The position numbers and the translations under genes were made by a program. A stretch of DNA of 64,000 nt from Owenia fusiformis (lineage: Eukaryota > Annelida > Polychaeta > Sabellida > Oweniidae): the NCBI GenBank assembly GCA_903813345.2, contig CAIIXF020000001.1:44347885-44411884 (forward strand), read 5' to 3'. The notes under the pieces are model-generated. The model made no database searches and was not told the DNA's origin. It worked only from the letters and a program-made list of their open reading frames with translations. Shown here piece by piece: positions 93 to 64,000 of this stretch. How positions within the stretch are numbered: the first letter of the stretch is position 1; the number at the start of each line of letters is the position of its first letter.

Positions 93-3000
93 CTAGAAAA
101 GTTGTAGATGAATGAATCCCTGGTGATAACATTCAACACCATGGCAACTGTTGCTATATTGGTTACTATGGAAACTTACCTTAGTCAGTAGAAACAAAGT
201 AACTAGCCGAGTGGGTTATGTTTGAACTATAGCAAAATGAGGTAGAAGCCTTATGTTCACAGTACAATCTAACTATATAGGAAGACACGAAGCAAGCAAA
301 TTTTGCATTCTAGACATTTAACATGTAAGTACAGCAAAATCCTTGCAAGCCTAATACATTGCGGTGACTTCATTTCATCTATCCAGTGATTTGGCTTGCT
401 TTCAAGATTACTGCCATTTACTATAGCTACTAACAGCCCATTCACAATACAACACATGCAATCCTATCATTCTCTCCTAATAACAGCACACATATTAAAT
501 AGTCTAGTATACATGCAGTACATAAAGCTAAACAAAAAGTTATTACTAAGAGAATCAGAAATCTACACCTAATTGTGTATATCTATGTTGAAAATAAAGT
601 CCTAATACACATGTAAAGCATAGTATTAGGCGAATTTTGGTACTGCTGCCTTTGTACTGCAAGATGTACAACATATGTCTTCTTTACTATCAAAAATATA
701 TTATTCCTATAGCAACAACAACTTCAAAATTTATGAATATCTCAAGGGAGGATTGGCTCCCAGAGTGCAACATCGATATTTTTGCCATATATGGGCATGT
801 TGTGATGTTGTGATATCAAAATCAAAATGAGAAACAAAATTCTTGAGTTTTCTTTAACTGGTTATTTCCTTTTCACAATTTTATAGAAAATAGATCTAGG
901 GATATCTCTAAAATGTTCAAAAAGTAGACAGTTGTCATATTAAAAAGTAACAGGTTGAAATGTAAAAAGTAAAATGGCTAAGTTAGAATGCATACCAAAT
1001 GGTTCAGTGCTAGTGATGTTAACGAAAACATAGGACAAATACTTTGTGATGCAAAACTATGCGTGAACATATTACATTAGTGAGCATAAGTGACCCAGCA
1101 CAATCCCATATACACATACATGCACATTCTTAGAAGTTACTATTATAAATCAAATTAATGAGAAAATCTATGAAAATAGTTTCAGTGAATTATATTTTGC
1201 AAAACCAAACCATTCAGCTCATATTATTTAAGCATGCATATAATCACAAATTGTTATAGAGCACACAAATTGTTATAATGTAGAACACACAAATTGTTAT
1301 AAAGCACACATTGTTGTTAGTACAATTGCAATGTACATTTATACAGATTCAATGATCAATTATAAAATTACATGTATATGAACCACTACAAATAAATGAT
1401 CTTTACTCTTAAATTAACTTTATAAGTGAATAGCTTATAGTTTAACTCTAAGTTAGCCTAATGGAATCTAATTTCAGTCTCATTCTGTTCTACGCTTGGG
1501 AGGGAAAGTGGGGATAGGGAGGGAGCTATGTGTAGATGTAATTACAAGCAAGTTTTTGAAAGAGAAGGAATTTTCCTTCCGAAATAACGTCTCCAATAAA
1601 TCCTGCAGTATTTCATAGAATGAGATATAGTGATATATGAATATACCGTTATTTCTAGTTTGAACATAAGAGAAGACCTTGAGAGAGGATGCAATATCCG
1701 AAGCACCAAGCAAAGTATAGCGGGTCCTTGAATTAAGAATGTCGCACCCAAATATCTTACCAGTAGTATTTTTACCAATGTCACCATCAGGTGAAGGTCT
1801 AGTGTCTATGTCTATGACTGGTGTTTCAGGGTCCTCTATATGGCAGGTAGCTAAATAGACATTCACTCTATTGTCAGGAGCAGTTTCGCCAAAGTCCAAT
1901 AATCTGTAAGATGTATAGAGCTAAAGGTTCAGCATCAAGCTTATCTGAACTGATGGTGTATAAGTATAAGCAGTAAAGCAACAAAAAGTGCAGGCTGGCA
2001 AACATGCTAATCTCTCCTTCCATTGGTTGATGAACTAGAAACCTAAAAGCTAAATAACAAAGCCTTGCAGCTATAGGCGCATGGGGCAGGGGATGTATGG
2101 TGTTCTAGCTACATCAACAGGTTCTACATGGGATGGAAAGCTACTGCTATATCATGCTGTCAATCGCCAACAAAGCAGCCCAAGCATGGGAAATGGGTAT
2201 GATCATTTTCCCGCCTTTTTCTATGAGTGACCTTGACCTTACCTCCTGAAGGGAGTTTTGTCGGAGGTGAAGTAGGTGGTAGTGTCGGTGGGGGTGTCAT
2301 ATCAACTAGTGTACAAACAGCCAATTGTACATTGAATGATTCTTTTTTGTCAGCAAAGTTTAGGTAACTGAAACATGGTTAGTGATGATTTGATGAAAAA
2401 TTTGAATAAACACAACACAACTCAAAAAAAGAATAAAAAGAAACAAAACATGAAAAATCAAAACATGAAAATAATATTTTGCTAATATGTAAGTTTTCTC
2501 TACATGTAAGTATTTTTCAAAATGATGTAATCATAATATTAAGTAGATAAGTAATTATTTTGTCAGTTTGAAGCTGTTATAATATTAAACTCCTAAATTT
2601 TAGTCTACGAAAAATGTCCATATATTTTAAAACAAACAATTACTGTATTATTATTAGGAAATTTTGGGGTTCTGAAAATGAAACATACAATTAAGTCATG
2701 TATCAACCAGGAAAAAAGAACATTGAAACATTGAAATCGTTTATAATACTCAATGTAGCAAGAATCTGCAAAAAGATCATTTCATAATTCTAAAACTGTT
2801 GAAATGGAGACACAAAAGTCTTTGATATCCCAATCTAAGATGCAAGAGTCCTTATGTTATACTTTAACATGCTTTACCTTCCATTAACAGTTACATCTCC
2901 TATACATCCAGCAAATGGTTTGACAGTTGGTATATTCTGTTCAACTATGGTGTAGTCATCTGGTACACCACCATAGTACTGGTAGCTGTTGGTGCTTAAC

Positions 3001-6000
3001 TTCCTACGTCTGGTACCTGTAATAGGTCCCTGGATGTTCTCTTTGTCATCTATATTAAGGGTAACACTGAAATAAACACATGATAATGTTGGGTTAATAT
3101 TGAATGATAAACTTGGAAATATTGAAATTTACCAAATTTCAATGATGCACTGTGGTTGGTCAGATCACATCACATGACCAGTTAATAATTCTATAATATC
3201 AAGGCATTAACATGACATCACATGACCTAGTTGCTCATAATATTATGAGTTCAATCTTTAAGTAAGATTTAACTTCTGAGAACTTGTAGCTGATCTTGAA
3301 AAATAAATTGGTCAATTTGAAGCAAGTTGAAAATACCTTTTGACCTTTTCTTGAGAAGGTCATTGAAAGTCAAATCTCAAATCCAAAGTCAGATTTGAAC
3401 TTCTGCAAACTTGTAGATAATTTTGAACTTTGGTCAATTTGAAGCAAGTTGAAAAAAACACCTTTTTGACCTTTTTTGACCTTGAGAAGGTCATTGAAGG
3501 TCAAATCTAAAGTCAGATTTGAACTTCTGCGAACTTGTAGATGATTTTGAACTTTGGTCAATTTGAAGCAAGTTGAAAAAAACACCTTTTTGACCTTTTT
3601 TGACCTTGAGAAGGTCATTGAAGGTCAAGTCTGAAATCTAAAGTCAGATTTGAACTTCTGAGAATTTGTAGATTATCTTAAAAAAGGTTGTCTAATTATT
3701 ATTTGTAAGTTATTGGAAGTTGTAAGAATTTGTTACAGATGCCAGACGCCAACCGCATCCACAAACAAAAAGTTGGCGACTATACAAAGTCTTATTTGGG
3801 AAGACAAAGTTTCTATAACCACCAATTCTAATTTTCTGATATTGCTTAAATATTTTTTAAAATGAACAACTATATAATTGTATACCATACCAATTTCATG
3901 GTTTCAATTATTGTCATATTCATAGATTATCAAGTCAAAATACCTATCATTAGACTTCATAAGCTGTAAATTTCAGTTCAAATACTTTCATAAAATTGTC
4001 CTGATCATAAAGGTTTGAAGGAAAATCAGGCACTCACGTCAGGTCTTCCTTCTTTAATGAGACATAATGCCATTTGCCATCGTTGTAGGTATTTCCACCA
4101 GAATTGACGGTGCTTAACTTGCCATTGCCTGGCACAACACCAATAGCAATCCTTCCATCAACCATTGACACAGAGAATGCTTGAGACTGTAAAAGAAGGA
4201 TAATTCTCATCATAACAGACGCAGTTTCCATCATACAAACATGCAGAAAATCAAAAGCGAAGCTACGTCAATAAGAACTTTTAACATAAGACATAATGAA
4301 TGAAAACAACAAGCAAAATAACAGAAATTAATATTTCTGCATGGAAATGATTGTAAACAACAAAGTAAGGTAAAACTACCAAAGAAATCACTTGGTGTCT
4401 GTTGTACCTGATGCCTTTTGGCCAAGACTCCTTAACCTACTGACAACTACTTTATGGTATTTTAAATAAACAAGATACTTTAACAAAAATATCATTATTA
4501 CTTCACTCTTGATGGTTTTATTGAATAAACAAGATCCATTAGACAAGACACGTTAACTCAAGCACATGTTATTGCTCAAAACATACCTGATCGTCATTAG
4601 CAGAATACATCATGATACCATCCTCTTTATTGCTCTTAAATCTGAATGTCATCTCATAGACTTTGCCTACATTCACAGTGGGCATAGCTACGTAACCCGG
4701 GGCATCCTCTTCAATAGAGAACACCTTGGCTTCCTAGAGATGAATAATAAGAACACATTGATAAATGGCATTGTTAAGAGGCAAGGTTTTGAGAAGCCAT
4801 CTATGGAACAATTGAAGAAGTTATATAGACACAATTTAAAAGTGAAATCATTTATACTATTGAGGAGGATTTCAAATTAACTACCGATGTGTTGACAGAT
4901 AGATGGATGGACAGACAGACAAACATATTTCGGATGAAACTTTTTACAAGGCTGTTTTCTACCTCTAACTTTATAACACATCGGTCCAAGTATGGGATAA
5001 ATATTAACTTACATCACTGCACCCAGGGGACACTCCTACTGCCTCTAAATTGGAACCGAGGTCCTTTTCATTGCCATCAAACTGAACAGATGTTATGCAA
5101 CCTATGAGGCCTTGGCTAGAAACACCACTGAAATATCAACATCAAATCAGGGTAAAGATAAATACATTAACTCAAGAGAACAAAAAGAAACATGTAAAAA
5201 TGTCTTTACAGAATGAAAACATTATCAATAATATTCACAAAAAATTAGTTTAAATCAAGTATCAGACTACAGATGTAAAAGTTCTCACATTGAATACATA
5301 TTCAATCACATAAGTGCCCAGTATTAAACTTTCACAAATCATGTTATTACAATGTCATCGCACCCTTATGCTAAACGAATCAAATATTAGTGGGTGTGGT
5401 CACAAAAATTAGTGAAATTCCAAGCCACCAACCAAACGCATTGATCTCACAAAATCTTTATCGGTCAAACCCCTAAATGATGTTAATGTAAACCCGAAAA
5501 CTTGAGTCTGCCCCAAATGTTAAACAATCAAACATAACCCCAAATGTGACAAACATGTGCAGCACATTCACTTCTTACTCTACTGCAATGTGGCCAGGAA
5601 GCCCTCCGATAAAATATTCCCCAACCATTTCCAGCTGATCTATTACATCTTCAGTTAACTCAGCTTCAAATACTACAAAGGGCATTTTACGACTATATAA
5701 GATGACTTAGTAAGTATTAGATATGACTAAGAAATGTTAAATGGACCATTTTCTGTACTTTTTGTTAGTTCAATATGAAGACTGTCATTTATGCTATAGC
5801 ACTCACAAAATAGTATAACTACAGCATACAGAGTGCTCCAAAAAGTTGGAGAGTCTATAATTCAAATACAAGATATTCAAAAAGTATAGGTACAGTCTAC
5901 ATATTGATTCAACATCAAGTGACAGAAATATGATCTCAGAAATGTATCTGGTTCTATTCAGGCTTATACCAGGAATAATGGCCAAATATATAAACAGTTG

Positions 6001-9000
6001 TGAAAACTTATTATATTCCCTTCAACGAATATTTTCAGCATTTTACAAAACAAACTTGTCATTTAGTCTTCCACAACTGTTGATATTTTGACACCATCCA
6101 TAACATACCACAACATCGACTCTAAATAATAAGTGAGGAAAATAAAACCAGATATTTTTTTCTGAATACAGGGCTTACGCAATGCTGAAGCCTTTCCGCA
6201 TTCCTCCGATAAAAACCTCATTTGTGAAAGACATTTCAGTCATATCTCCTGGTGAATCACCCCTTATCTGTGAATCTACAAATAATGCAAGCAACTAATA
6301 GACTACACATTCATATTAGTAGTAACCATTCCTAGCAATAGATGGCTTTCTGAACAAGTAGAAGCCGTAACTGACACATTCTCAAAGTGCAAATTCAGTG
6401 AGGCAGATAAGTATATTTGCATCTGGATGTGCAAATTCATCAGAACATTTTGAACCACTCTCTGATCATGTTTTAGTCTGGCAAAATTTCGCTATTTGTC
6501 AAGTGTTCAGGCCATATATGCCACAGTAGAATTTGCATTTTTAGTTTTAAAACTCAGCCTTAATAGGTCTTATCCATGCAGTATGTGGAGCATGACATGC
6601 TTGATATACCATGAGGGCATGTTTCAAATGTGGGGGATGCGACATTGGTGGTGGTTCTTCTGATTCAATATTTTTGCCTTTAGATTCCTCATCTTTTAGA
6701 TCATCATATTCCATTTTTCTTCGTCCCATTATTCATATTTCTATCCCTCATATTCAATATTTCCAACCCACTTATGTTGTCTTTGAAATGTCTGATTTCT
6801 TGATAATTATTATGCCATGACATAAGTTTTATTTCCTTCCCTACCCTTGTGTTGGTATATTTCTTAGGTGGGTAGGGGCTACACAAGAGTGCAAACAAAA
6901 TTATTTCCCCCTATTTTCTCTACTTGATTTGTAAACATGCCCTCATGATGTTTAATAACTAGAGCATCCTTTAATTTGTCATCAGTAAGAATATAAGAAG
7001 TATTAGCATTCATAATAAGTTGAATGTACATGTGGTTAACACTATACAGGGCCAGGTCAAATACAATGTGCAATTTTACATGAAAGTAAATTGACATTTT
7101 TGGCCCAGCCACTATTCCTATGTGAAAGCTGAATGTTAAGTTAAAATTCACAGGGAGAGTACATGTATGTTGGTTAGTTAACCCTATCTATTCAGCTGAC
7201 TGAAATTGTCCTTAATCTGCAGTAACACAGATAAATAGTGAGTCCTGAATCTTCACTTTTGTAAATAGCAGTGATAGTTCTTAAAAGTACCCAATACACA
7301 TGTTTCCATGCCAATGATAAAAACAATTGAATAATTATGAGTTATACCGTGGTTCTCCCTGTGAATATAACACGTGCTACTTGAGTGGTTGGGGACATCT
7401 CTCCGATGAGCCTTCCCCACTAAGTTTGAGAGTTATCAGTGATAAAAGTGTAAACCAGCCTAAAACTGAAAATGCATGCAACTACAGTACAATGCGAGTA
7501 TCTCTATCTATGACCAAACATCCATTTCAGCATGCCACCTAGTGAAAAAATACAACATCAATATCCCCCTGGTGTGGGATTCTCTAACTAGCATGGCCCT
7601 CTATTGGTGGACTTACGGGAAGTTAAACCCTAGCCTTTGTCCACCGATAAACACTTCATTGGTGAAGGCCATCTCCTTCATATCTCCAGGAGACATTCCA
7701 CTAACTTTGTCTACAATAAGGGAGTATTATGTTTAAAAAACAATTATGTGGATATAAATTCATTAAATAATGGCAAAGCTAGCAATCTGATTGGCCCTTC
7801 AGGTCCTTGATACCTCACAGATATTTACTAATCATAGATATTTTCATTGAAATTTTTCTTTGGAGATTTCTGAAGTACTGTTCAAGTAATGTTCAAGTAT
7901 ACAATTTAACACACTGAATTCTTCGAGTGACAGCGCTTAAGGCAATTCCATTTCAACTATAGAAATGCTAATATGAACAAATAAATTAGTAGTATCATAA
8001 AAATAATATCAAGCCTATTTTAACTAGACAAAATGTACCTGTTTCTCCATCAATAATAAGAAGGCCTGACTGTTCTTTCCTGATAGCCTGGATTTCATGC
8101 CATTGTCCATCATTGTAGCGTTTTGGAGTTTCCAAGAAAGCTCTTCCTTTGCCAAGGTCATATTGGTAGAAAATCTGAAAACAACATAATTCCAAGTTTG
8201 AAGGTTTCCCTTGTTTATATGTGCAACATTGTATTATTGAATTATTAGTATGTAATACGAATATTAATATTTTCTGAATAGATATATGCTATAGATGCCA
8301 ATAATGCCAAATAATTACCTTCCCATCTTTGAGTTCAATTGACATGAAATCTGTTCCTTTACCCATGAAGAATAGAAGTCCATTTGGTGCGTATGACTTG
8401 AATTTCAATTTGATGTTACTCTTCTTAGCTGGTCTGAATCTTGCTGCATCTATGACAATGTACCCATTGCCATCAAACTTGTACTCACTAACAGTAATCG
8501 CATCTGGCTTTTTCCTGTAAATGAAAATGTTCTTTTATATTCATGACTTCATTCAAGACATCAACCTTTATTTGAAAAAGGGATGAGCTGCCTAGAGGAT
8601 CAGTTTTCTACTGAATGATATGTTCAGGTATGATATTCCAAGAAAGCGAGGATGAGATAATCAGGTATGATTTTTCAGAGAGGGGAGGATGAGATGTTAA
8701 GGTATGATTTTCCAGAAGGGGAGGATGAGATGTTAGGTATCATTCCCCGGAAGGGGAGGAGTTGTCAGCCGCATGACTTGCTTACAGGTAATGCCTGATA
8801 AGTATTTATAAGTAGCTCTTAAAACTTTTGTTAAAGCTCATGAAAGCTAGTTAAGATCTTCCATCTTATCAGCATCATATAAAACCATTTGTTGCAATCA
8901 GAAGCTGGTGTGGCCAACTGATGGGAATCAGGGTATAAACTCACCTAGGACTACATCCTTCATCTATATTCGCTGCTGTAACAAAGTCCCACAACCCAAT

Positions 9001-12000
9001 GGGCACATAGTCAACCGTGACATCCTCAATACAACCAACAAACTTACGGCTGATGATATCATTGATCTGAAATAACAAGATACATTACTGTCAATATTAT
9101 TTTAATATATTAGAATGATGGTTAGTTGTGCAAGGAAAATACCTCATTGAACACATTGTAACATTTTTGCCATTTTCCAAGCTCAGAAGAAGAACCAAAG
9201 TCCATTAGTTTTAACAAAGAGATAGAAAGAGGTCTAATCCTTCAATACATTAATCAACAAAAACAATATATTGACCCAGCCCCACAAGTACATGTACACT
9301 TACATTTGAGGTATCTGGTACACCACCCACAAAGAATTTAGTTGTCTCTTTATCGAGAGAAAGTATAGACATGGTGCCTCTAGATTCTCCAGTTACAGTT
9401 ACTGCCTCTTCTTCATCAAGATCCTCTGGTGTCTGTACTAACAATGTACCCTTTTTGCCACTTCTTTCTGCAATCACATGGTGCCATTTATCTTTCTCAA
9501 CATCCTTCGGGTGTGTGATAACCGCAGCTCCTGATCCCAAGTTATACTTGAATACAACCTTTCCATCTATAATCTCAAGAGCGAAGTAATCTACTCCTAT
9601 GTTTAGGCCACTTCTAGGTGCATCTGAGCCGAGGTACATCAGGAAGCCATCGCGTTCTGTTGTTCTGAAAAACAACTCGACCCGTGTTCGAGATCCCTTG
9701 TCACCCAAGCCATCTGGGTTACGTACTTGAAGTGTGGAATCGCTCTTGTATCTCACCCCAACCTTGATTCTACTAGCTTCAAACCTAGCCAGTCGGATAT
9801 TGTTCTTCAAGTCTTCAAGGTCAACTTTGACAGATTTTCCCAATCTTTCTACCATCTCCTTGGTTACATTTAGATTTTCCATGAGGTTAACTGCTTTTGG
9901 TACCATATCCTGAACCTTTTCCACTGGAAATATCAAGGAAATGTCATTAAAATAAAATACACGCAACAATCAATCGGATTAATTCATTTGTTACATTTGG
10001 ATGTAATACCCCACAACACATCTTGTCTTGATTTAAATTAGTTATTTTTATCCATGTGAATATTTGTGTACTAGGATTTTAGGATTAAGATTTTTTCCTT
10101 TCCCATTACACTCAACACTCAATTCTGATTCAAAACAAGTGGATATCTTTAATAAACCATACCTTGTGCCTTTGCTCTGTCAATGGCCTTATTTGCTGCC
10201 AGGATATCCTCAGGGATCTGTTGCACTTTGATCTTGTCTTCAGGTAGTTCGTCGAGGATGTCTTGGATCTGGTCCTTGGCATTAGTTGCCCTGGTCTGAG
10301 CATCCATTGCTTTATCAGCAGCTTTTTGAGCCTCCTCACCAAAACCATCTACAGTATTATGAATAGATTCCAATTTATTCTTAAGTCAGGGGAATATGAT
10401 AAACTGGTAAAACAAAGCCTCATAATACTGGTTATAAAAAATAAGTTAAAATTCTCTATACGTTATTCTGGAAAATATTGATTTCAATAGAATTTTAAGT
10501 GCTAATTCATGGTTTTAACTTTTAATGTATGTATATATTTTACCATAGAATAATATAAATAAAATAATAAAATATATACATACAATCTTTTAATCATACA
10601 ATGTATGATACACATACTCATGGATTTTTATACATATAGAAGATGTACCTTCAGGCAGTGTATCTAATCCATCAAGAAGCATGTTGAGCAAGTCCCTAGC
10701 ACGTTTAAGTTGATCATCTAGATTTGACACAGACTGTTTAGCACTATCCAACTGATTCCTCAAGTCATTCTCCACCTGCATCGAAATGTGTACCATCACA
10801 TTCACATCACATTCACAAAACATATTTTAAGGATGCAGTACCGGGTCGGTTTTCACGTCTGTTTGCGCAGGTTTGACTTCCGGTTTGAGGAAGCTAGCTC
10901 CCAAGAACGTCATTTTCGCATTTAGTCTTATTCAAAAATTATAGTTTATTTCGATAATGGTGTTTCCAGAAAAGAATCAAATTGCAAACATTTTATCAAG
11001 CATATTTTATTCCTTTCACTTTTATGGGAAAACCTGTTATTGAGTCGCAATTAGTGGATACGAAAACCAGGGTTCGAAAGGTGCCAGCTCTATTGAAAAC
11101 TCAAAAAAGTAAAAAGATTCATTTTGGGTGGGTAAAATAATTTTTTTATTTTGTAATTACCAGACGGCCAATCCTCTTCATATTGCACTTGGATGATGCA
11201 GCGTTTTATTTAGTGTTACCAAAAAGTGGGTCCAATGGACCCCACGGTAAAAAAAAATGGAGTCCAAACCAAAAAAAGTGGGTCCGAAAAATTAAAGGCC
11301 TGAAACTAATTAAAAATGAAAAAATTGGATAAAGCAAATTCAAGTACTCGTTTTTTTCTAAAGTAACACAAATTTAAGGCATTTTTGTCTTTTTTACCAT
11401 GTAGTCTTATGGAGTGATTTTATATTTACTAAACTTACAACTACATAAACATATTTATTGTAACATTTCATAATGTTCATTATCATCATTGTCAATACAT
11501 GAAGGATGTAATGATAATTCAATTTTTCCTCTTTTTATCTAAATCTGTTCAAATGATACACATACATGTACTGTAGGTACATACTAGCTCAGACAATTTT
11601 GTAATTTAGACCCTCTCTGGTGCATTCTGGCATATCTCGGCAAAAAATTTCCAATAATAATATTTATAATACATAATTGATTGTAATTAATTTTTTTTCT
11701 TAATTACTTTGTTTTTCAATGTTGCCCCTTGTTCCTCCTCACTCTGATGTAAATTAATAAACTCAATATTCCTTTCTGACACATTATCAATCTCAATGAA
11801 ATATAAAGATCAACATTCAATAGTTTGATATGTATTTTTGACTTGTAATATTTTATTTGTTTTCAAATGTTGCCCTTTGTGCTTTCTCACTATGATGTAA
11901 GATAATGCCAAAAAGATCAATTGTATTAATTAAACAGTTTGTTGTCAAGTTTATGTGTAGGCTAATTGTTAATAATAGTATCCATTGAAAGATGGCAGGA

Positions 12001-15000
12001 CAGTGATAAAGGTTTTTTGCTACTGACCCATTAATCTCAAAGCAATGATGTTTTGGTTTTAGAGGTCAATCAAAATGGTGGCCGAATTACAGTAAGATAA
12101 TTATCTCAGTGTTTCTCTAACACTGCTGATTATCTGCCTATTATACTTAGATTTTGTCTTCACAAGGTAGGCCAATTTATATTCTTTCATTTGTACTACT
12201 GTTTTAGTGTTCTAAGAGGTAAGGTTTTGGGAAATTGCTGTAAAAATAAAGTGCGTCCAAGGGACTCTGGAGTTTTTTATTTTTCCGTCCAACATTATTT
12301 TTTGGGGTCCATCTAATGTAAGGACGGCGTTAAATAAAACGTAGATGATGATAACATCATAGTGATACATTGTAAAAAATATGAGCAAAATCTAATGTCT
12401 GGAACTTTTTCTACGCTGACCTGGTACTGCATCCTTAAGGTAAGATTTCTATTAATATACCCACAATAAAATCATTATTTCCTTGTGACTGTCGCTGTAA
12501 CCATGGGGTCATGAGTTCGAGATGCGTGAGCTCATTGCATTTATTCATTTCTAGCATAAACCTCAAACTTTCTCTGTTTGCAGTGATTTTAACAGTCAAC
12601 TATGGAGAGTTCAATAATTACATTAACTAAAGCTACAATAAACATCAACTACTATGTGTACCTTATCACTCGCTTCATTAGCTTCTCTAAGAAGTCTTTC
12701 ACTCTTCCTTCTCGACTTCCTAGCCCTCTCGCCCAGTCCTTCCGAGTTGGTCAAAGCTTCCATTGCAGCATCAACAGCAGCTTCAGCAGCCTTCAGTGCA
12801 GCATTGATGGCATCAACAATGTCCTTATAGGCATTAGCTGCTCTCAGAGCATCTTCAGACAGGTTTCGAACACCAGCAAATGTTCTGAAAACAGGATTGA
12901 TTGTCAATATGGCTAACATTTAGCAGTATAGAATGAATGTAGGATATATATGCAAATAATATCCTATTACATGATTATAAGGGATAATATACAATATATA
13001 CAGTATATGTGGATATATTGATATTTTGTCTTGAAAAATACTGTCTCAATAGTTTTTTACTCATAGCAGACAAAATATGAGATATCTTATCAAATGGGCA
13101 TGTCCAAAGAGTATATGCTCAACAAAATACATGTTATCAAACAAGGCATTAACATGCCAAAATGTCACCACCTAAAACAATTTGGTCAATTTAAAGCAAG
13201 TTGGAAAATACCTTTTGACCTTAAGAAGGTTTGATTTGAACTTCTTAGAACATGTAGATGATTTTGAAAAAAAAATTCGTCAATTTGAAGCAAGTTGAAA
13301 AAATACCTCTTGACTTTTTTTGACATTGAGAAGGTCATTGAAGGTCAAATGTCAAATGTCAAGTCAGATTTGAACTTCTGAGAACATGTAGATGATTTTG
13401 AAAAAAAAACTAAGTAAATTTGAAGCAAGTTGAAAAAAAGACCTTTTTGACCTTTTCAAGGTCATTGAAGGTCAAATGTCAAATCTAAAGTCAGATTTGA
13501 ACTTCTGAGAACATGAAGATGATTTTGAAAAAAAATTAGTCAATTTGAAGCAAGTTGAAAAAAGACCTTTTTCACCTTGAGAAGGTCATTGAAGGTCAAA
13601 GGTCAAATTTAAAGTCAGATTTGAACTTCTGAGAACTTGTTAAGTCAAATTTGAACTTCTGAAAAGATGTAGATGATTTTGAAGCAAGTTGAAAACAGAC
13701 CTTTTGACCATTTTTGACCTTGAGAAGGTCATTAAAGGTCAAATGTCAAATCTAAATTCAGATTTGAATTTCTGAGAACATGTAGATGATTTTGAAAAAA
13801 AAAATTGGGTCAATTTGAAGCAAGTTGAAAAAAGACCTTTTTGACCTTGAGAAGGTCACTGAAGGTCAAATGTCAAATCTAAAGTCAAATCTAAAGTCAT
13901 ATTTGAATTTCTGAGAACATGTAGATGATTTTGAATAAAAAATTTAGTCAATTTGAAGCAAGATGAAAAAATACCATTTTGACCTTTTTTGACATTGAGA
14001 AGGTCATTGAAGGTCAAATGTCAAATCTAAAGTCAGATTTGAATTTCTGAGAACATGTAGATGATTTTGAAAAAAAAATTTAGTCAATTTGAAGCAAGTT
14101 GAAAAAAGACCTTTTTGACCTTTTTGACTTTGAGAAGGTCATTGAAGGTCAAATGTCAAATCTTAAGTCAAATCTAAAGTCAGATTTGAATTTCTGAGAA
14201 TACCATAGTACATGGTACATAGATGATTTTGAAATTTTTTTTAGTCAATTTGAAGCAAGTTGAAAACAAACCTTTTTGACCTTTTTTGACCTTGAGAAGG
14301 TCATTGAAGGTCAAATGTCAAATCTAAAGTCAGATTTGAACTTCTGAGAACATGTAGATGATTTAGAAAAAAATTGAAGTCAGTCTAAACAGTATTTGTT
14401 AAGTTATAGGAAGTTGTAAGAAATTGTTACAGACGCCGGACGCCAGACGCCGGACGCCAACCACCAACCGCCGTCGCAAAAAAACGGAGACCATAACAAT
14501 ATGTCACCACTTTTGGTACCACTTTTGGTGGTGACATAAAAAAAACAGCAGATCACAGGTGCAGAACCAGTGAAAACATTCAGAATCCCAAGTGTTAAGT
14601 TATGCAAACATTGACTTACTTCTCAAGGAGATCAGCATCAGAGGTGAGATTCCTAGCATGGATTGTACCTTTCTCTACACATGGCCGCAAATTTTCGTTC
14701 TCCATCTTGCGAGTGTTGATGAAATCACGAAGTTTAAGCATAGCCCCATCTAACTCAGATGATGCTTGATCTAACTCCTAAACATGGAACATAAACATGG
14801 AACATGCACTTTCAGTAAGTTATGGCGTAATTCATAATTTCTATTTCTTAAATGACCACTATTAATAATAATAACTTATATACGATTCAAATGAATTAAT
14901 AGCATATTAATAACCAATACATTGCTAACTAAACTGTAGTGTTTTAAAAAATCTCATCAACTTAAATTTTGGACAAAATATACACAGGCATGTAAACTAT

Positions 15001-24000: not shown

Positions 24001-27000
24001 AATATAAAAGTACTCAGAAATGGAAATATGTGTTCATAATCCGCCATGCATCATGCATCTAAACCATTTTACAATTGATTTGCATAAGTGGTCACTGGAG
24101 AGTCATTAATAATTTTTAATCAACTCCAATGTTAATCAACTAAATGGGAAAATAATACATATAATATTTAAAAATATTCAAGTGTAAAAGTATTGTCATT
24201 TACAAAGGGGGGAAGCCTACCTGAATGGGCACGCATACATGTCAGCACTTCCAGTTCCACGAGCTCCTCGGGTAGCGACATCAAAATTGATAGTCTGAGT
24301 CTGTTTAGGTCTTGTATTACGATATCTCACCACCAATACATACTGGCCGCTCTTTGCGACACGTACATTCAGATTTATTGAGTTCTGATCGCGGTTTAGT
24401 GGCGTCAGATAAGGTACCCCAAGAGCATCAGCTGTTTCACGATCAGATGATGTGGTCACGCGACGTCTTTCTTGGTTTACAGTGACTGAACCTTCCTCTG
24501 CACGTGCTTTCTCGAAGTTGGCGAGATCAACATAAGTGTAATGACGACATGGTTGGCCATTGTCAGGCACGACACAAGGTTGAGAAACAAATTCCTGTAG
24601 AATAGTGGCCTCATAGTAAGCCTGTGGTAGCAGTACCAAGTAGTCCTGAAATAAAGGATAATTAAGGTTAAGAACTCCCAGAACAGTGAGATTTTGTGCA
24701 ACACATTCGCGACCAGATTTCTTAGAACTTCAAGCAAGTGAGTATACTTTAGGCATGTATATCTATTTGCCTTATATGTGAGTACAGTAGTAAGAAATTT
24801 AAAATGAACTGATCCATAAAATTTTTGAATTATCTTAGACCTCACACTAGGGAGCATGGCAGGGTTAGTATCTTACAAATATCTGTTTTCCACTTTAATC
24901 TGGCATTTTCAGAAACAATACTCATAGGAAGTACAGGATATAGATAAACACGCTGAACTTACAAGAAGTACATTCTCGGCTGTCTTCACTGAAATGCTCC
25001 ATCTTCCAGGGTTCAGGACAAATGTAGCTATACCGCCAGTTCCAGCAACTGTCACAAATTGAGGAGAATAAGTCGACTCAAATGTCACAGAGCTGGATTG
25101 CTCTGCATCTACAGAGGTATCAGGTGTAACGGTAACCTCAGCAGTGATGGGGGCAGAGTTACGGCTGACATAACGGAACACGAGTCTGTATAAACTGGGC
25201 TTTGTGATGTCAACATCTACCAGTACCTCTTCCTAGAACACCAAGAACAAATAAATCATAAAATTTGACTGAACAGTCCCATTTTACAGATAACACGGCA
25301 TTGCAGGTATCATAGTCATATGCTATAAGTCAACTCTTAAATATGAACATGTATTTTAATTTTCAAAGGATTTAAATACAGTTACATTTATTGTCTAGAC
25401 TTCATTACATACCTGAAGCCTTGACATGATGGCATAGCCTCTCCAGGAATAATCCGGGAAGGCATTGCTATCAAAGTTGTAGCGAACTTTCCCACCAGTG
25501 CTTGTGCGCCCATCTTCAAACTCAAACTTGTTCTCATGAAGAGTTGGGAAGAAATGTTTGGAAATTGGTTTGTCGCACTGTCTGCCTCTAATACGTGGCC
25601 GACAACTACATTGACCATCTGACTGGCGACAGGTGTTGTCCAGTGCTCCACCAACATCACATTGGCAATCTGGTATAGCATAGAACAAACAATATGATAG
25701 AAAACCAAGTGATAAAAATATTAGTGGAATATTAAAGAAAGGACATTGCTTTCCTGGTTTAAGGAACACATTTGGCATGATGCATATCATAGAAGCAAAT
25801 GAAAAAAGATGGACTTAGGGCCAATTTCTTATTCAGACTTTATTTGGTAGCTCATACAGTTATAGCAACTTTAAACAATGCACTTACTGGTACATCCAAA
25901 CAAGTTATACTCCTGCAAGTCATATGTCCCAGGTGTGCAATCGGAACACTGCCTGTCAGTTGTAAATGTCTTACACACGCACTGTCCGTCTGCTGACTTG
26001 CAATCACTAGTGCCACCTATTGTTCCAGGAGTGTGACAATTACAGGTTTCGCAACCCTGTGGGTTATTGACATTCAGGTTCCAGTAGCCTGGTTTACAGG
26101 TGTCACAGATATGACCTTGAACTTTGTCCTTGCACTCACAGAGCTGGCCATTACTGAAGGAACCACATCCTCCAATTGGGAGTCCAGGAATTGTACGAGC
26201 ACCAGCTGGGTTGCAGTTACACTCTAGAACCACACACAGCGTTGCATTTATGTCAGCATTTGTACACTTTCAAACTACTAGGTCTAATTTTTAGAACTAC
26301 CAAGAATAAATCTACAGAATAAACCATTTTAAGAATATTCAGAGATTAACCATTGACAATGATTTCTTAAAATCAGTATCTTTTTTAACTGACAACTCAC
26401 TGGAATAATCGTATCTCAAGTCTCCAGGGCAATAAGAATTATACAAATCAAATGCATGTTTTTTCAATGTTACCTCTTGTGGATTCTAACTGACTCCAAA
26501 CATACCTTCACAGACTGGATAGTTGTAGAAACCCTCCTTGCATTTGTCACAGTTCACACCTTCAAAGTTGTATCTACAGGTACAGTCTCCCCCTTCTTGG
26601 TCACATGATATACCATACGAGCCATATGGGTCACAATCACAAGAGTTGCATTCTGGGTACTTGAAATAGCCTGGAGCGCAGTTTTGGCACAACTGACCCC
26701 CATATTCAGGGTTACAGTAGCACTGGCCTCTGTCGTCACACGAATTTCCACGTGAGCCCGGGTCAGTACACTGGCACTCTATAATACAATAAAATACAAA
26801 ACTGTGATATTATAACACAACAAAACTTTTCTTGTAACACATCTACCACAGATCTATAATATATTCTAATTATTTTTATCTAAAAAGGTTAAGTTATACC
26901 AAAGGCTAACATTCACAAAGACAACCCTGTATTTATTTATCTGACATATACTCTAAAGATAAATCAAAGTGTTATTCTAGATCCAACCCTTTAATTTGCT

Positions 27001-50700: not shown

Positions 50701-53700
50701 TAAGGATGTCATAATGTTTTATTATTAAGAAATTCATCAGTACTACATGCATTTATTGTTTCAGTGTAAAGCCGGGTCTGTCGAGGCTAGTTCTAGGATT
50801 ATGTTATACCTTACTTTTCCAAATCCTTTCTGTATATACACCTGATTCATATCTCACAGATCCAGAATTTCTAGTAAGTACATAGTTGTCTTTGATTCAT
50901 CATTTTAGACTTACAGTATGCCGTAGCCAGGATTTGTCAAGGGGGGGTTCACTTTTTGAAAAATTCCAGGAGGGGTTCACTTGTGACAATTTTGGTCCAA
51001 AAATGGCCAAAATCACTTAAAAAGTGCTCAGAATGGTGAAAAACTGCATGATTTTGAAGGATTCTTTGGCCAGGGGGGGGGGGGTTCGCTCCAACCCATC
51101 GAACCCCCCCCTGGCTACGGGCCTGATTCAGTCCTTAGATGTTACTCAACTGCATAGGGTGACACTGTAAGTTTGAGAGATAGCTAGTATGGATAGCCAA
51201 TGGAGACCAGAGTCCTCAGACATCAATAATTGGTCATGTTCATTTGACATAATGAACATGTACCAGTTTGTCAATGAAGTTCTTGCAAAAAATCATTATA
51301 ATTTTCTTTTTGTTGATATGTATTTAGTTTTGTCACAAAAACAGCTACTGTTATTGATTGGTCAAAAGTTATGATGGTGATGATTATTTCAGAATTCCAC
51401 GTTGCTCTACAAACTACTTTACATCCTGATTTGGGGAAGAGTCTTTCTATTCAAATACAATGGCTGCTGGCTCATCACAGTAAGTTAAACAAAAAATATA
51501 TTCAAAATTTTATATTAATTTCCGTTCTTCAGATTTGCGATAATTTCACGGTTATATAGAAAATGCCTCATTATGTAGTCGTGATAATTTTGAACAAGTA
51601 CTTGTTTTAAATCTAATGATCAATAACTTCCAACATTAATAGACTTGACTCGATCTTTCAGTCTATAAATTACACAATTCATGAAATATGAAACACACCT
51701 TGTTTTCTGTAAATATCAAAACTAAAAAATATTGATCTGGTAACCACATTTTTGCCTTCTTTAATAAATATGAAATGTACTCAACACCTGGGTATTTCTA
51801 GGTGTTTGTACTTCTTATATTACACACGTACAAAGTAATTTTTTAAGCTTTGATGATAATTTTCAGTTAGCAAGTTACAGGTTGCTACCATTTTAGAGGT
51901 TACAAATTGTTTGAGGTGACAAATGTTCGTTATTTTTATATATCTTCATCAGGTAAACTGAATCAAAGTTTCCAGTTTTTTCCAGTTTACCTGATGAATA
52001 CATTGAAATATATTGAAAATCTGTTATCTCAAACAATTGTTTGTTTTAAATACTTGTTAACAGAATACATTTTATTTGTTGATAGGAGTTATATAAAGGT
52101 TGAGCAACTTTAATTGTTCATTATTGATTTATTTGCAGGAAGGAGCATGCTTAGTGACAGGTCTTTCATATAATGGGAAAGACAAGAATGGGAATGATCT
52201 CTGGGATGGGTGTGCGAATATCATACCATATTACTGTGAAGTAGGCGATACTGGTCAGAAACTCATACAAGGATTCAATATAAACACCAATCTATGGATG
52301 GCAAAGTAGGTGTATGGACAGTGTAACATTTTAATTGAGCTAGAAATAATTTAATGCTACAAAAACTACAATAATTTGAATCTTTTAAGGACACATTGAA
52401 AGCATTTTTGGCATTAAGTCATCGAAACAACCACTAAACTGATGATCAGTTGTATTTTTTATGTCTAATTGTCAAATTTCCCAAATTTTTAACCTCAAAG
52501 ATGGTTATTACTAGTTAAGGTATTCAACCTTTAAATGATTTTTATTATCGCACTTTGAAAAAGTGCTATATTGTCGTCGTCTTGTGCTGTTGGGCGGGCG
52601 TTTGGGCGTGCGGGCGGGCGGGACATAAACCAAATCTTGTCATCAAATTTCCAGGATAACTGCTTACCTGTTCAACTTGAAATTTTTACAGATGCAAGAG
52701 CAGACTAGTACCAAGATCTGATTAGGTTAAGGGCATGCTGGGTAAACTATGTGGCGGCCATTTTGAATTTTTCAACAAATTTTGTCATCAAAATTCCAGG
52801 AAAACCACTTATCCGTTCAACTTGAAATTTTTACAGATGCAAGAGCAGACTATTGCCAAGATCTGATTAGGTTTTGGGTATGCTGGCTGAATTACATGGT
52901 GGCCATTTTGAATTTTTGAATTTGGCGGCCATTTTGAATTTTTCAACTTGCTCCAAATTGACCAAATTTTTTTTAAAAACATCTACAAGTTCTCAGAAGT
53001 TCAAATCTGACCTTAGATTTCAGATTTGACCTTTCATTCACCTTCAGTGACCTTGAAAAGGTCAAAAAAGTTGATTTTCTAAATTGATATTTTGGATTTA
53101 AATTTAGGTCAGCTTAATTACAAAACACCTACTGAGGTCTGAAAAAGTGAAATTTTCAAGGTCGAAAGTCAAGGTCATTAAACTAGGTCACAAATGATGT
53201 TATCCAAGTTTCTCAAAGTTTGAGACTACAAATCAATTCTTGTCATCAAAATTCCAAGAAAACCGCTAACCTGTTCAACTTGAAATTTTTACACGTGCAA
53301 TAGCAGACTAGTGCCAAGATCTGATTAGGTTAAGGGCATGCTGGGTAAACTACGTGGTGGCCATTTTGAATTTTTCAACAAATCTTGTCATCAAAATTCC
53401 AGGAAAACCACTTATCCGTTCAACTTGAAATTTTTACAGATGCAAGAACAGACTATTGCCAAAATCTGATTAGGTTTTGGGTATGCTGGCTGAATTACAT
53501 GGTGGCCATTTTGAATTTTTCAATTTGGCGGCCATTTTGAATTTTTCAACTTGCTCCAAATTGACCAAATTTTTTTTTTAAAAACATCTACAAGTTCTCA
53601 GAAGTTCAAATCTGACCTTAGATTTCAGATTTGACCTTTCGTTGACCTTCAGTGGCCTTGAAAAGGTCAAAAATTTGATTTTCTAAATTGATATTTTTGA

Positions 53701-60594: not shown

Positions 60595-61518
60595 TCAAAT
60601 TGCTGTACATTTCATAGAGAGGTCAAGCGGTTCAGTTTGCTCATTATATATCAATGATTTATTTGAGGTTATAATTTTATTGAATTGTATATTCCCCTGA
60701 ACAGGACCATTGTAAATGGATAACGGCCTTGGGACTGTATGTTTTGCAACATATGGGACAATTTTAGATGGACCTCCTTCAAGGGTATTATCATGTATCA
60801 TCTTTCGCTTGATTTTGCACGTAAAACATTGACAATATGATAATTTTGAGCACCATGTAGTCTCATGAGATTGTCTATTTTCTAACATGCTTATATCACC
60901 TTGATTAAACCTATGAATGTCTGAGATGTTCCAATGTTTACTAATAAGTTGGCTGTCAGTTGGCATTTGTAATCGAGGAATCCTTTCTGCCCATTTTGGT
61001 CTTTCCCAGCCTGGGTAAAGGTTCATGTTGGGTTGATTTGGTTCATGGTTAGGAGTTCTGTATGTTATATAGCTGTGATGTTGAGCCATAATGTCAGGAT
61101 AAAATCTTTTACCCACAGGGAGCATAGTGTACTGGAACCGTCTGTATTTTGTACGTTTTACCCAGGGGGTAGAGTTTAAATTAACTGGTCCATTCTGGTA
61201 CAGCCTTACCCCCTCAGTTTCAGAAAGACTGCCTTCTACTGGGTACTCTTTGTGTAGTTTTTGATGACGTTTCATATTTGAGAGTTCAGAGAATGTTTTG
61301 AGGCAATATGGGCATTGGTGAGGACGCTCCCCAGTATGGACTTTCCAGTGACGTCTTAGACTGGCCACCTGGGAGAAGCGCCTGCCACATGTCATGCATC
61401 CAAATGGTTGTTCACCAGTGTGACGGCGAGTGTGACGTAATAGGTGTGACATATAGTAGAATTCTGCGTCACATACTGAACACTGGTATTCACCCTGTTG
61501 TTTCCCCTCGGACTCCAT
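60595..61518 (-). CDS. Three-finger C2H2 zinc finger protein with C-terminal PLDLS (CtBP) motif
   Basis: One uninterrupted 307-codon frame. Residues about 12-97 hold three C2H2 fingers: [38 protein letters not shown] and [25 protein letters not shown] and TGERPH linkers are typical of DNA-binding fingers. The remaining 200 residues are low in recognisable domains, with a small cysteine cluster ([12 protein letters not shown]), and the end is [17 protein letters not shown] is the classical binding motif for the CtBP corepressor, so a nuclear repressor role is a reasonable inference. The ATG at 61518 is preceded by aatttaagattaac, which could be a splice acceptor for an untranslated upstream exon. 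I do not recognise a specific orthologue. Confidence 0.85.
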
Positions 61519-64000
61519 GTTAATCTTAAATTAATTAAAAAGAATATTTTTAGCTTTATATAGTTCAATAATGAATGATCCATACCTCAGTTTAAAGTTT
61601 CAAATACTTGATTCATTGGAGTAACATTTTTTTAACTGTCACCTTGTTCACAATATTTTTTCTTGCAATATTCTATGTCATGTCTATTTAATTTCTACCT
61701 TTTATGACTTTATTTCATAATAATCTCTTGAGACTCTACTGGCAAATATATAAACTAACCTGCCCCTTTTCAATTTTAGTGAATTTGGACATTTCATCTT
61801 AAATCTCCAATATCTTTCATATTTGATCAAATATCTCAATCCATTTTTCAAATAATGAAATTAAATTGTAATGGAAACATGAGAATGCCTTTTCAAAATG
61901 TTTCTTCCAACATTTTACAATCTCTTTTCTTTTCTACTACTTTGAAATAGTGAAATGAAACTTAAAACATTCTTCAATTATGCAATTGAGTAAACAACAG
62001 AATTAACAGAAGTCATCCAATCTTGGGATCTAATCATGTTTGATAACTAAGTTTTAAATCATTTAGAAAATAATAAGAATTAAAATAGATTTTTAGACAT
62101 TAACATTTTTTAACAAGTTTTATTTATAAAAATGTATCTCCATTGATGTAAGTTTTTGAATTTTATAAAATCAATTAATTAAGAACATGCTTATGCGTTT
62201 TGTCACATTATTTGAGGTACAAACACTTGAATATTCTAAAAATATTTTAATTGATAAAGAGAATTAATTAAATTAATGAAAATAAATTTACCAACCTGTC
62301 TTGAATCTGGAAACAATCCGCCAATACATCTACATATGATTATTCTTCTTTTTTGAAGCTTCAATTTACAGTTAAAGTTTTGACCAGAAACAACCGTTTT
62401 GATGTCTACTTATTTATATCCATTTTTGATCAGATATGTGAAACTAATACTTTGTTAAGTCAGTTATAATGTGATGATGTCATTTCACATTGTTTTTAGA
62501 ATAATAGGTTTTAATTGCAGTTGTCAAAAAAATAATTTGAGGTGTTCACCTGCAACTTTCACTCTCTTACACCTGTTGATAAAGTCTCAATTTGAAATTC
62601 GATTCAATGTAAAATATATCGGTAAACAAAGGTATTTTGAGGTTTTGGATAAACGTGATGGTTTATCAGCGATAGGGAAAGCGAATTCTTTTGTAGATAT
62701 ATTAACAGGTTATATTTCACTGCTTATTTAAATGTTTATTTGATCTCAAAACACAAACAAAACGATTGTCAAAATTAACAGTCCAAATAAAGCTTTTAAT
62801 TTTGCTTGATTAAATCTTTATTTGACTAGTTGACTAAATTAATTATAGTTTTTACATTACGTTGCCTTTGAATAGATTGTTTATAAAAGGACTTTTACCT
62901 GACTAAAAAATACCTCGTTATGCCACCTGTAATTACAGATTATCTGAAATGATAGTGTCATTTTGGATTTAGTAACTAGATAGGCAGAAACTTTCACTGT
63001 GCAACTGACAGATCTGTGGAATGATTGTATATTTAGTAGGAAAATAAATTAATAATTAACAGCGGTAAGCTGTAATTTAATTAATTTCCATGGTTGACTA
63101 CTCGACAGCAATACAACACACAGGAGAAATTGGAGGAAATTTGAGACATATATTAAGCACATTAATGTTTTAAATTCTTAGAAATACAAAAATGATTAAT
63201 AAGATTTTTACATGTCAATTCTTTAAGTAAACATTTTTTATGGTAGGCCCTCATATAAAAGACATTGGGATTAAAATGGTCGTTAGTGTAGAGGCCTCTA
63301 TTCAATCCGATACCATATAAAACTTAAATTTCATGTTATCTCACCAGATTTTCAATTAGGGTATTCTGAATAGCAATTCCACAAAACTGTCAGGAAAACA
63401 TGAGCCTGAATCCCAAATTAACATTGATGCTTCTCAAAATTAATTTGGAATTTTGAGTCCATATTTTTGTGACAGTTCCATGGAATTGTAATTCTTGAAA
63501 AAATATATGTTTATAAATTGAATTCATGGGATTAATAGATAATATAATGCCCACAATAAAATATGGTACAGAATAAGGGGAATGACAGCTTTGATAAAAA
63601 ATACTTAAATGTATACTAAAAAAGTTAACCCAGAATTCAATATAGTAGTAGGAGTAAGGATACTGTAAAAATAATTACCTTCTTCACCGATTTCAAGTTT
63701 GCAGTTGAGCTGAAAATTTAATAGTATCATAATGAAAAGCAAGGTTGCTGCTTGTGCAGGTCAAAAGTTCAAACTTGCAAATCCCTTGCAAAAAGTTTCT
63801 GGTTGAATTTTATTCTTATTAGTGATACTGTACAAAATCTTTTCCAATGTGGGAAAAGAATTTAAATACATGACTCAACAAATTCTGTGTAATTTGTTGC
63901 AAACATACCTTGTATCTTAACCTTTGAATTTGGGCTACTACCCTCAGTCAAAGTTTTGATACTAAAGGATTTAACAGGGCAATGTGGAATGACTATTCCT
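61519..64000. other. Upstream region of the zinc finger gene, no gene seen
   Basis: About 2.5 kb of AT-rich sequence with only short, domain-free open frames (for example 62471-62731, plus). It probably contains the promoter or untranslated first exon of the zinc finger gene. I could not place either. Confidence 0.5.

Follow-up and report, generated by a model that had tools for sequence, protein, structure and literature searches.

We have studied three tandem candidate exons, A, B and C, in a laminin alpha gene of the annelid Owenia fusiformis. The window analyzed is a stretch of 64,000 nucleotides (nt) of contig CAIIXF020000001.1 (GenBank assembly GCA_903813345.2, forward-strand positions 44,347,885 to 44,411,884), and the gene is carried by its minus strand. 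The exons fall within the part of the gene that encodes the LG2 domain. Judging from the DNA alone, we put the probability that they are alternatives used one at a time at roughly 0.8.

The gene is recognized by the order of its domains, which are met along one strand in the laminin alpha order of LN, LE arrays, L4, coiled-coil domains I/II and LG. We constructed a simple exon-chain model of 40 exons running from LN to LG3; it is sequence-based and incomplete, and some of its borders may be wrong. Nine of the model exons were scanned against Pfam, and six gave Laminin_N, EGF_laminin, Laminin_B or Laminin_G above the cut-off. The matches to Laminin_I and Laminin_II in the same scan fall below the curated cut-offs, the sole match of exon 24221-24645 is to CBM_35, also sub-cut-off, and exon 12662-12883 matched no Pfam family. 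Domains LG1-3 are present in the window. No exon for LG4-5 was spotted by eye below position 1760; if one exists, it would sit beyond the start of the window.

An earlier note on this DNA had proposed that A, B and C all enter in phase 1, leave in phase 2 and have AG/GT borders, and the coordinates were exact on rechecking (Table 1). In each of the three, the first codon takes a single base from the upstream exon, which ends at 8039, and the last two bases are passed on to the downstream exon, which starts at 5127. The only joins that remain open are those in which A, B or C is placed singly between these two exons, each of which gives one open LG2 domain. The further proposal of the note, that joining exons of the cluster to each other or skipping them all would break the frame, is borne out. 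Read from the preceding exon, the combinations AB, AC, BC and ABC all run into stops, and skipping all three exons leaves the message out of frame. Although the total length of ABC is a multiple of three, B falls out of frame in this combination. The introns of the cluster are 328, 1341, 506 and 451 nt long, with 1341 nt between A and B, and 506 nt between B and C.

Table 1. Coordinates of the LG2 exons, of the probable second cluster and of neighboring exons of the laminin alpha gene
Feature	Position	Strand	Phase (in to out)	Remarks
LG1 exon	9304..9923	-		Laminin_G; Laminin_II below cut-off; part of the evidence that this is laminin alpha
Constitutive exon LG2a	8319..8514	-	2 to 0	start of LG2; open, AG/GT borders
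Constitutive exon LG2b	8039..8174	-	leaves in 1	precedes the cluster; donor GTACAT
Alternative exon A (predicted)	7617..7710	-	1 to 2	94 nt; AG/GT borders; net charge -1
Alternative exon B (predicted)	6179..6275	-	1 to 2	97 nt; AG/GT borders; net charge -2
Alternative exon C (predicted)	5579..5672	-	1 to 2	94 nt; AG/GT borders; net charge -8; best LG-profile fit of the three
Constitutive exon LG2d	5013..5127	-	enters in 2	end of LG2
Constitutive exon LG3c	2878..3066	-	leaves in 2	precedes the probable second cluster
Probable alternative exon d1	2243..2367	-	2 to 1	end of LG3 and Pro/Thr-rich linker
Probable alternative exon d2	1761..1903	-	2 to 1	end of LG3 and linker

Relatedness of the exons and their fit to the LG domain

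The relationship between the exons was judged against a pool of all AG..GT segments in the window that are 82-111 nt long, open, and run from phase 1 to phase 2, with 341 segments on the plus strand and 269 on the minus strand. In this phase-matched pool the comparison of B with A gives a score of 106, and the best segment overlapping neither exon scores 20. The score of C against B is 25, where the best unrelated segment reaches 19; with C as the query, B again scores 25 and the best unrelated segment 23. A second scan, by local alignment, covered all but the first and last of the 40 model exons (38 exons) and took 173 neighboring candidates that were phase-matched and had 0.7-1.3 times the length of the exon beside them. 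Near A it returned only B (108, plus shorter forms) and C (29). An all-against-all comparison of translated stretches over positions 1-41000 found the A/B pair again among the best 30 low-cysteine pairs per strand, the remainder being mostly minisatellite.

Aligned over 32 residues, A and B are identical at 21, and 12 of these 21 are encoded by different codons. By the method of Nei and Gojobori, the proportions of synonymous and nonsynonymous differences are pS = 0.80 and pN = 0.24, with just 19.8 synonymous sites. Within a core of 24 codons, 22 base changes lead to 5 residue changes. Random placement of the changes gives a mean of 13.8 residue changes, and a value as low as that observed was reached in none of 20,000 trials. 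Since the residues match while the codons differ, both exons have been kept by selection on the protein. A and B are thus shown to be diverged duplicates, each read as protein while diverging.

This divergence also bears on the origin of the tandem arrangement. Haplotypes or collapsed paralogues placed in tandem by the assembly could produce such a layout, which is all that favors an artefact of this kind, and we rejected the explanation as scarcely credible because synonymous sites are close to saturated between A and B. Moreover, the 85-nt match between A and B themselves, 72% identical, is the longest direct repeat in 4900-8300, and it extends just 8 nt into the introns. Of the remaining repeat families there, none exceeds 26 nt among those listed (20 of 23).

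The fit of each version to the domain was measured with the Pfam LG_2 profile. LG2 scores 73.5 bits with none of the exons, rising to 88.1 with A, 92.9 with B and 95.3 with C. Seven control inserts, other segments of the window among the higher-scoring ones in the phase-matched pool, gave 72.9-80.9 bits, and thus all seven fall below A, B and C. It is because C completes the LG domain by this profile, and not on the strength of direct comparison, that we assign it to the cluster. As C fits the profile best, it may be the older form.

Comparison with solved structures took in forms A and C. The best printed domain alignment of the A form is with laminin alpha1 LG2, at 79.9 bits. With human laminin alpha5, C scores 42.1 bits over query residues 8-174 and A 31.4 bits over residues 8-72. 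On passing from A to C the whole-chain score rises for laminin alpha1 LG1-3 (141.1 to 145.9) and laminin alpha2 LG1-3 (108.3 to 113.5), and falls for neurexins (3qcw, 208.2 to 200.8). The A form was also submitted to AlphaFold2, together with four other entries from the window. The best of five models had a predicted local distance difference test (pLDDT) score of 82.8 and a predicted template modeling score of 0.84, the five pLDDT values being 82.8, 81.9, 70.3, 60.7 and 56.7. The model is an LG domain, matching those of laminin, pikachurin, agrin, perlecan and neurexin. Within it exon A contributes a strand (residues 106-111), a loop (112-123) that lies in the least certain block, a second strand (124-127) and the beginning of the segment 128-144.

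That C completes LG2 best in Pfam, and outscores A with laminin alpha1 and alpha2 LG1-3 and with alpha5, is what would be seen if a single exon, most likely C, were working and one or both of the others were dead or barely used duplicates. We consider this quite improbable. A and B are near synonymous saturation with their residues conserved, and both remain open and retain GTAAG donors; dead copies would lose these features.

A 76-nt open segment at 6958-6883 on the minus strand was tried as a further copy and rejected, its score of 27 being at the level of unrelated pairs; it overlaps an inverted repeat. This A/B-like segment is perhaps a relic copy, or perhaps a chance resemblance. The intron between A and B holds a perfect 15-nt inverted repeat (6610-6624/6933-6947, 308 nt apart), which may be a stem or a small mobile element, and a perfect 13-nt inverted repeat (7146-7158/7354-7366, 195 nt apart).

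Splice sites and the proposed choice of one exon

The acceptors of A, B and C all end in TTGTAG. Among the other 39 acceptors of the model, two end in GTAG and one of these in TTGTAG. If the exons are used as the frame suggests, the spliceosome would join 8039 to one of 7710, 6275 or 5672, and then the chosen exon to 5127. The choice among A, B and C would follow tissue or stage, and transcripts carrying none or two of the exons would be non-productive and cleared by nonsense-mediated decay.

We asked how such exclusion might be achieved. Steric hindrance would call for an intron of under ~50 nt from donor to branch point, and the introns between the exons measure 1341 and 506 nt. No U12-type donor was found in the four introns of the cluster, and thus no mixture of U2- and U12-type introns. 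From the intron lengths and the lack of U12-type donors, crowding or mixed intron types are unlikely to be the cause of exclusion.

Several results weigh against the use of A, B and C as a mutually exclusive set. In the phase-matched pool C lies outside the best 12 matches of A, where a truncated version of C (5663-5579) has a score of 12, like unrelated segments. In the second scan the score of 29 for C against A is near background, the next unrelated candidate having 27. The residue identity of C is 5/32 to A and 9/30 to B, and by direct comparison C cannot be called a duplicate of either. The whole-chain score falls from A to C for two further structures of laminin alpha2 (1qu0, which is LG5, 51.6 to 46.9; 1okq, 115.1 to 114.3). 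The splice sites are of mixed quality. When sites are scored with a matrix trained on eight constitutive exons, the acceptors of A, B and C stand at the 63rd, 90th and 76th percentile among all AG in the gene, and among all GT the donors stand at the 96th, 68th and 60th; the constitutive exons themselves score at the 99th percentile, but they trained the matrix. Finally, a scan in both directions for docking and selector RNA pairing in this single genome found none above 20 shuffles.

This last result speaks to the possibility that competing RNA structures, like those of Dscam, decide which exon is taken. Structures of this kind are reported for several insect genes (PMC6071210), and the introns here are long enough to hold them. 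Nevertheless, the best pairings are matched by shuffled sequences. The best worst-of-three value was reached by 3/20 shuffles for a dock after C and 8/20 for a dock before A, and the best sum by 7/20 and 10/20, respectively. Covariation cannot be shown from a single genome. We regard competing structures as an unlikely basis for the choice.

A stronger rival is that the exons are alternative without being strictly exclusive. Splicing would then be leaky, with the reading frame and nonsense-mediated decay sorting out transcripts with two exons or none and no active exclusion; double inclusion may even serve to turn the gene down. The stops met in double joins and the shifted frame of the skip are in keeping with this, as are introns that impose no steric block, the lack of a U12-type donor and the failure of docking pairings to exceed shuffles. 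Among human frame-shifting clusters, 83 of 377 have joined reads, and the other side of the same count is that 294 of 377 have none (PMC5740500). The long maintenance of the versions also suggests a regulated choice, and we think leaky splicing doubtful, though it is the least improbable of the rivals. The frame by itself is enough to render any wrong join useless, a weaker condition than active exclusion.

The earlier note had read the arrangement as mutually exclusive splicing. The identity of the gene, the phases and borders, the homology of A and B with purifying selection upon them, and the completion of the domain by C all uphold three alternative exons as the preferred reading. The exclusivity itself we infer from the frame.

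Downstream of exon A, at 7616-7467 on the minus strand, there are two GCATG words, one of them TGCATG, within 150 nt. Exon A is alone in this among 43 exons (the 40 of the model, B, C and d1). GCATG binds Rbfox proteins. The pattern was noticed post hoc among six words in six places, and is a lead and not a result.

LG3, a possible receptor-facing surface and known systems

The end of LG3 has a probable second pair of alternative exons, d1 and d2. Placed after the exon ending at 2878, either is open to its own end, and d1 and d2 together break the frame. They have N-V-x-L-A-x-C in common, and each is the other's best match on the gene strand (or a segment overlapping it), with a score of 30, a level at which unrelated segments reach 30 on the plus strand and 29 on the minus strand. 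With d1 or d2 in place, the alignment of LG3 to its counterpart in laminin alpha1 extends to query residue 184. The exon that follows them falls outside the window.

The charges of the LG2 exons (Table 1) differ most for C, which has neither Lys nor Arg. The KSRK of agrin aligns inside the segment encoded by the alternative exon (in the A form). In agrin this is splice site A; it lowers the binding of dystroglycan, and lies beside a putative calcium site in the J-K loop (PMC6450144). In human laminin-511, LG2 contacts integrin alpha6, which touches the bottom of alpha5 LG2 with a surface that includes the spliced X1 region (PMC8241838); the likeness to the present gene is drawn at the level of the domain. 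The integrin-contact residues of human alpha5 are R3042, R3045, K3092, K3099 and D3102. Exchange of the exon would replace one edge of LG2, consisting of a strand, the loop varied in agrin, the F-I-G-G strand and the following loop, leaving the fold unchanged. The surface would be turned from near neutral (A and B) to strongly acidic (C), and integrins, dystroglycan or heparan sulphate might then respond differently to the same laminin trimer.

Differences in receptor choice among laminins are usually put down to the alpha gene that is expressed. We tentatively suggest, as a possibility somewhat short of even odds, a laminin coded by splicing, in which three versions of LG2 and two of LG3 (six combinations) would change the face of the basement membrane toward integrin and dystroglycan by tissue; this would be a ligand-side counterpart of integrin X1/X2, with C as the acidic version. 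If true, one alpha gene exchanging a piece of LG2 would supply several adhesion specificities.

Known mutually exclusive clusters (Dscam, Mhc, 14-3-3zeta and others) resemble the present one in having neighboring exons of similar length and the same phases that break the frame when joined. Homology between exons is clear here for A and B at least. The difference is that this cluster sits in a laminin alpha chain. In neurexins splice site 4 lies in the loop before the I-G-G strand, a part that the alternative exon covers here. Splicing at this site in LNS6 is likewise a case of an LG-fold domain whose choice of partner is set by splicing (PMC9812575), but it places an insert in or out, whereas here there is an exchange. 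Agrin site A, in LG2, is similar in that splicing alters the matching LG loop, thereby changing dystroglycan and heparin binding (PMC6450144). Agrin adds or omits four residues, whereas the laminin cluster would exchange a whole segment of 32-33 residues. In integrins alpha6 and alpha7, X1/X2 splicing varies the receptor's side of the contact with laminin, with X1 facing laminin alpha5 LG2 (PMC8241838), in contrast to the variation here, which would be on the side of the ligand. Splice variants of a laminin alpha chain are themselves known in alpha3A and alpha3B, which differ in the short arm (alpha3B having the LN domain) and not in the LG domain (PMC11260871).

Both tandem exons of the mutually exclusive kind and splicing within LG domains are already known. 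In agreement with the earlier note, which knew of no laminin alpha chain described in this way, a literature search of partial coverage found, among the titles and abstract openings listed, no such arrangement in laminin alpha LG2, an absence that is weak evidence. The papers on mutually exclusive exons that were compared (PMC3923563, PMC3228551, PMC5740500, PMC6071210 and PMC9741552) nowhere use the word laminin in their main text.

Other features of the window

Relatives of the gene were sought among viral and prokaryote contigs and none was found, as expected for an animal gene; Rfam and tRNA scans of the window gave no matches. In the region of the laminin short arm, an open stretch on the minus strand (23346-22939) is absent from the exon model and is likely a missed exon. 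Two introns of the gene contain similar-looking tandem repeats of 124-136 nt (3260-3673 and 13233-14373), with several AAGGTCA/TGACCTT words. Elsewhere there are two like arrays with a 145-nt unit in two copies each, ~600 nt apart (52631-52917 and 53234-53523). An open frame of 311 amino acids on the minus strand (60595-61530) appears by eye to be C2H2 zinc-finger-like, and ends near PLDLSMK.

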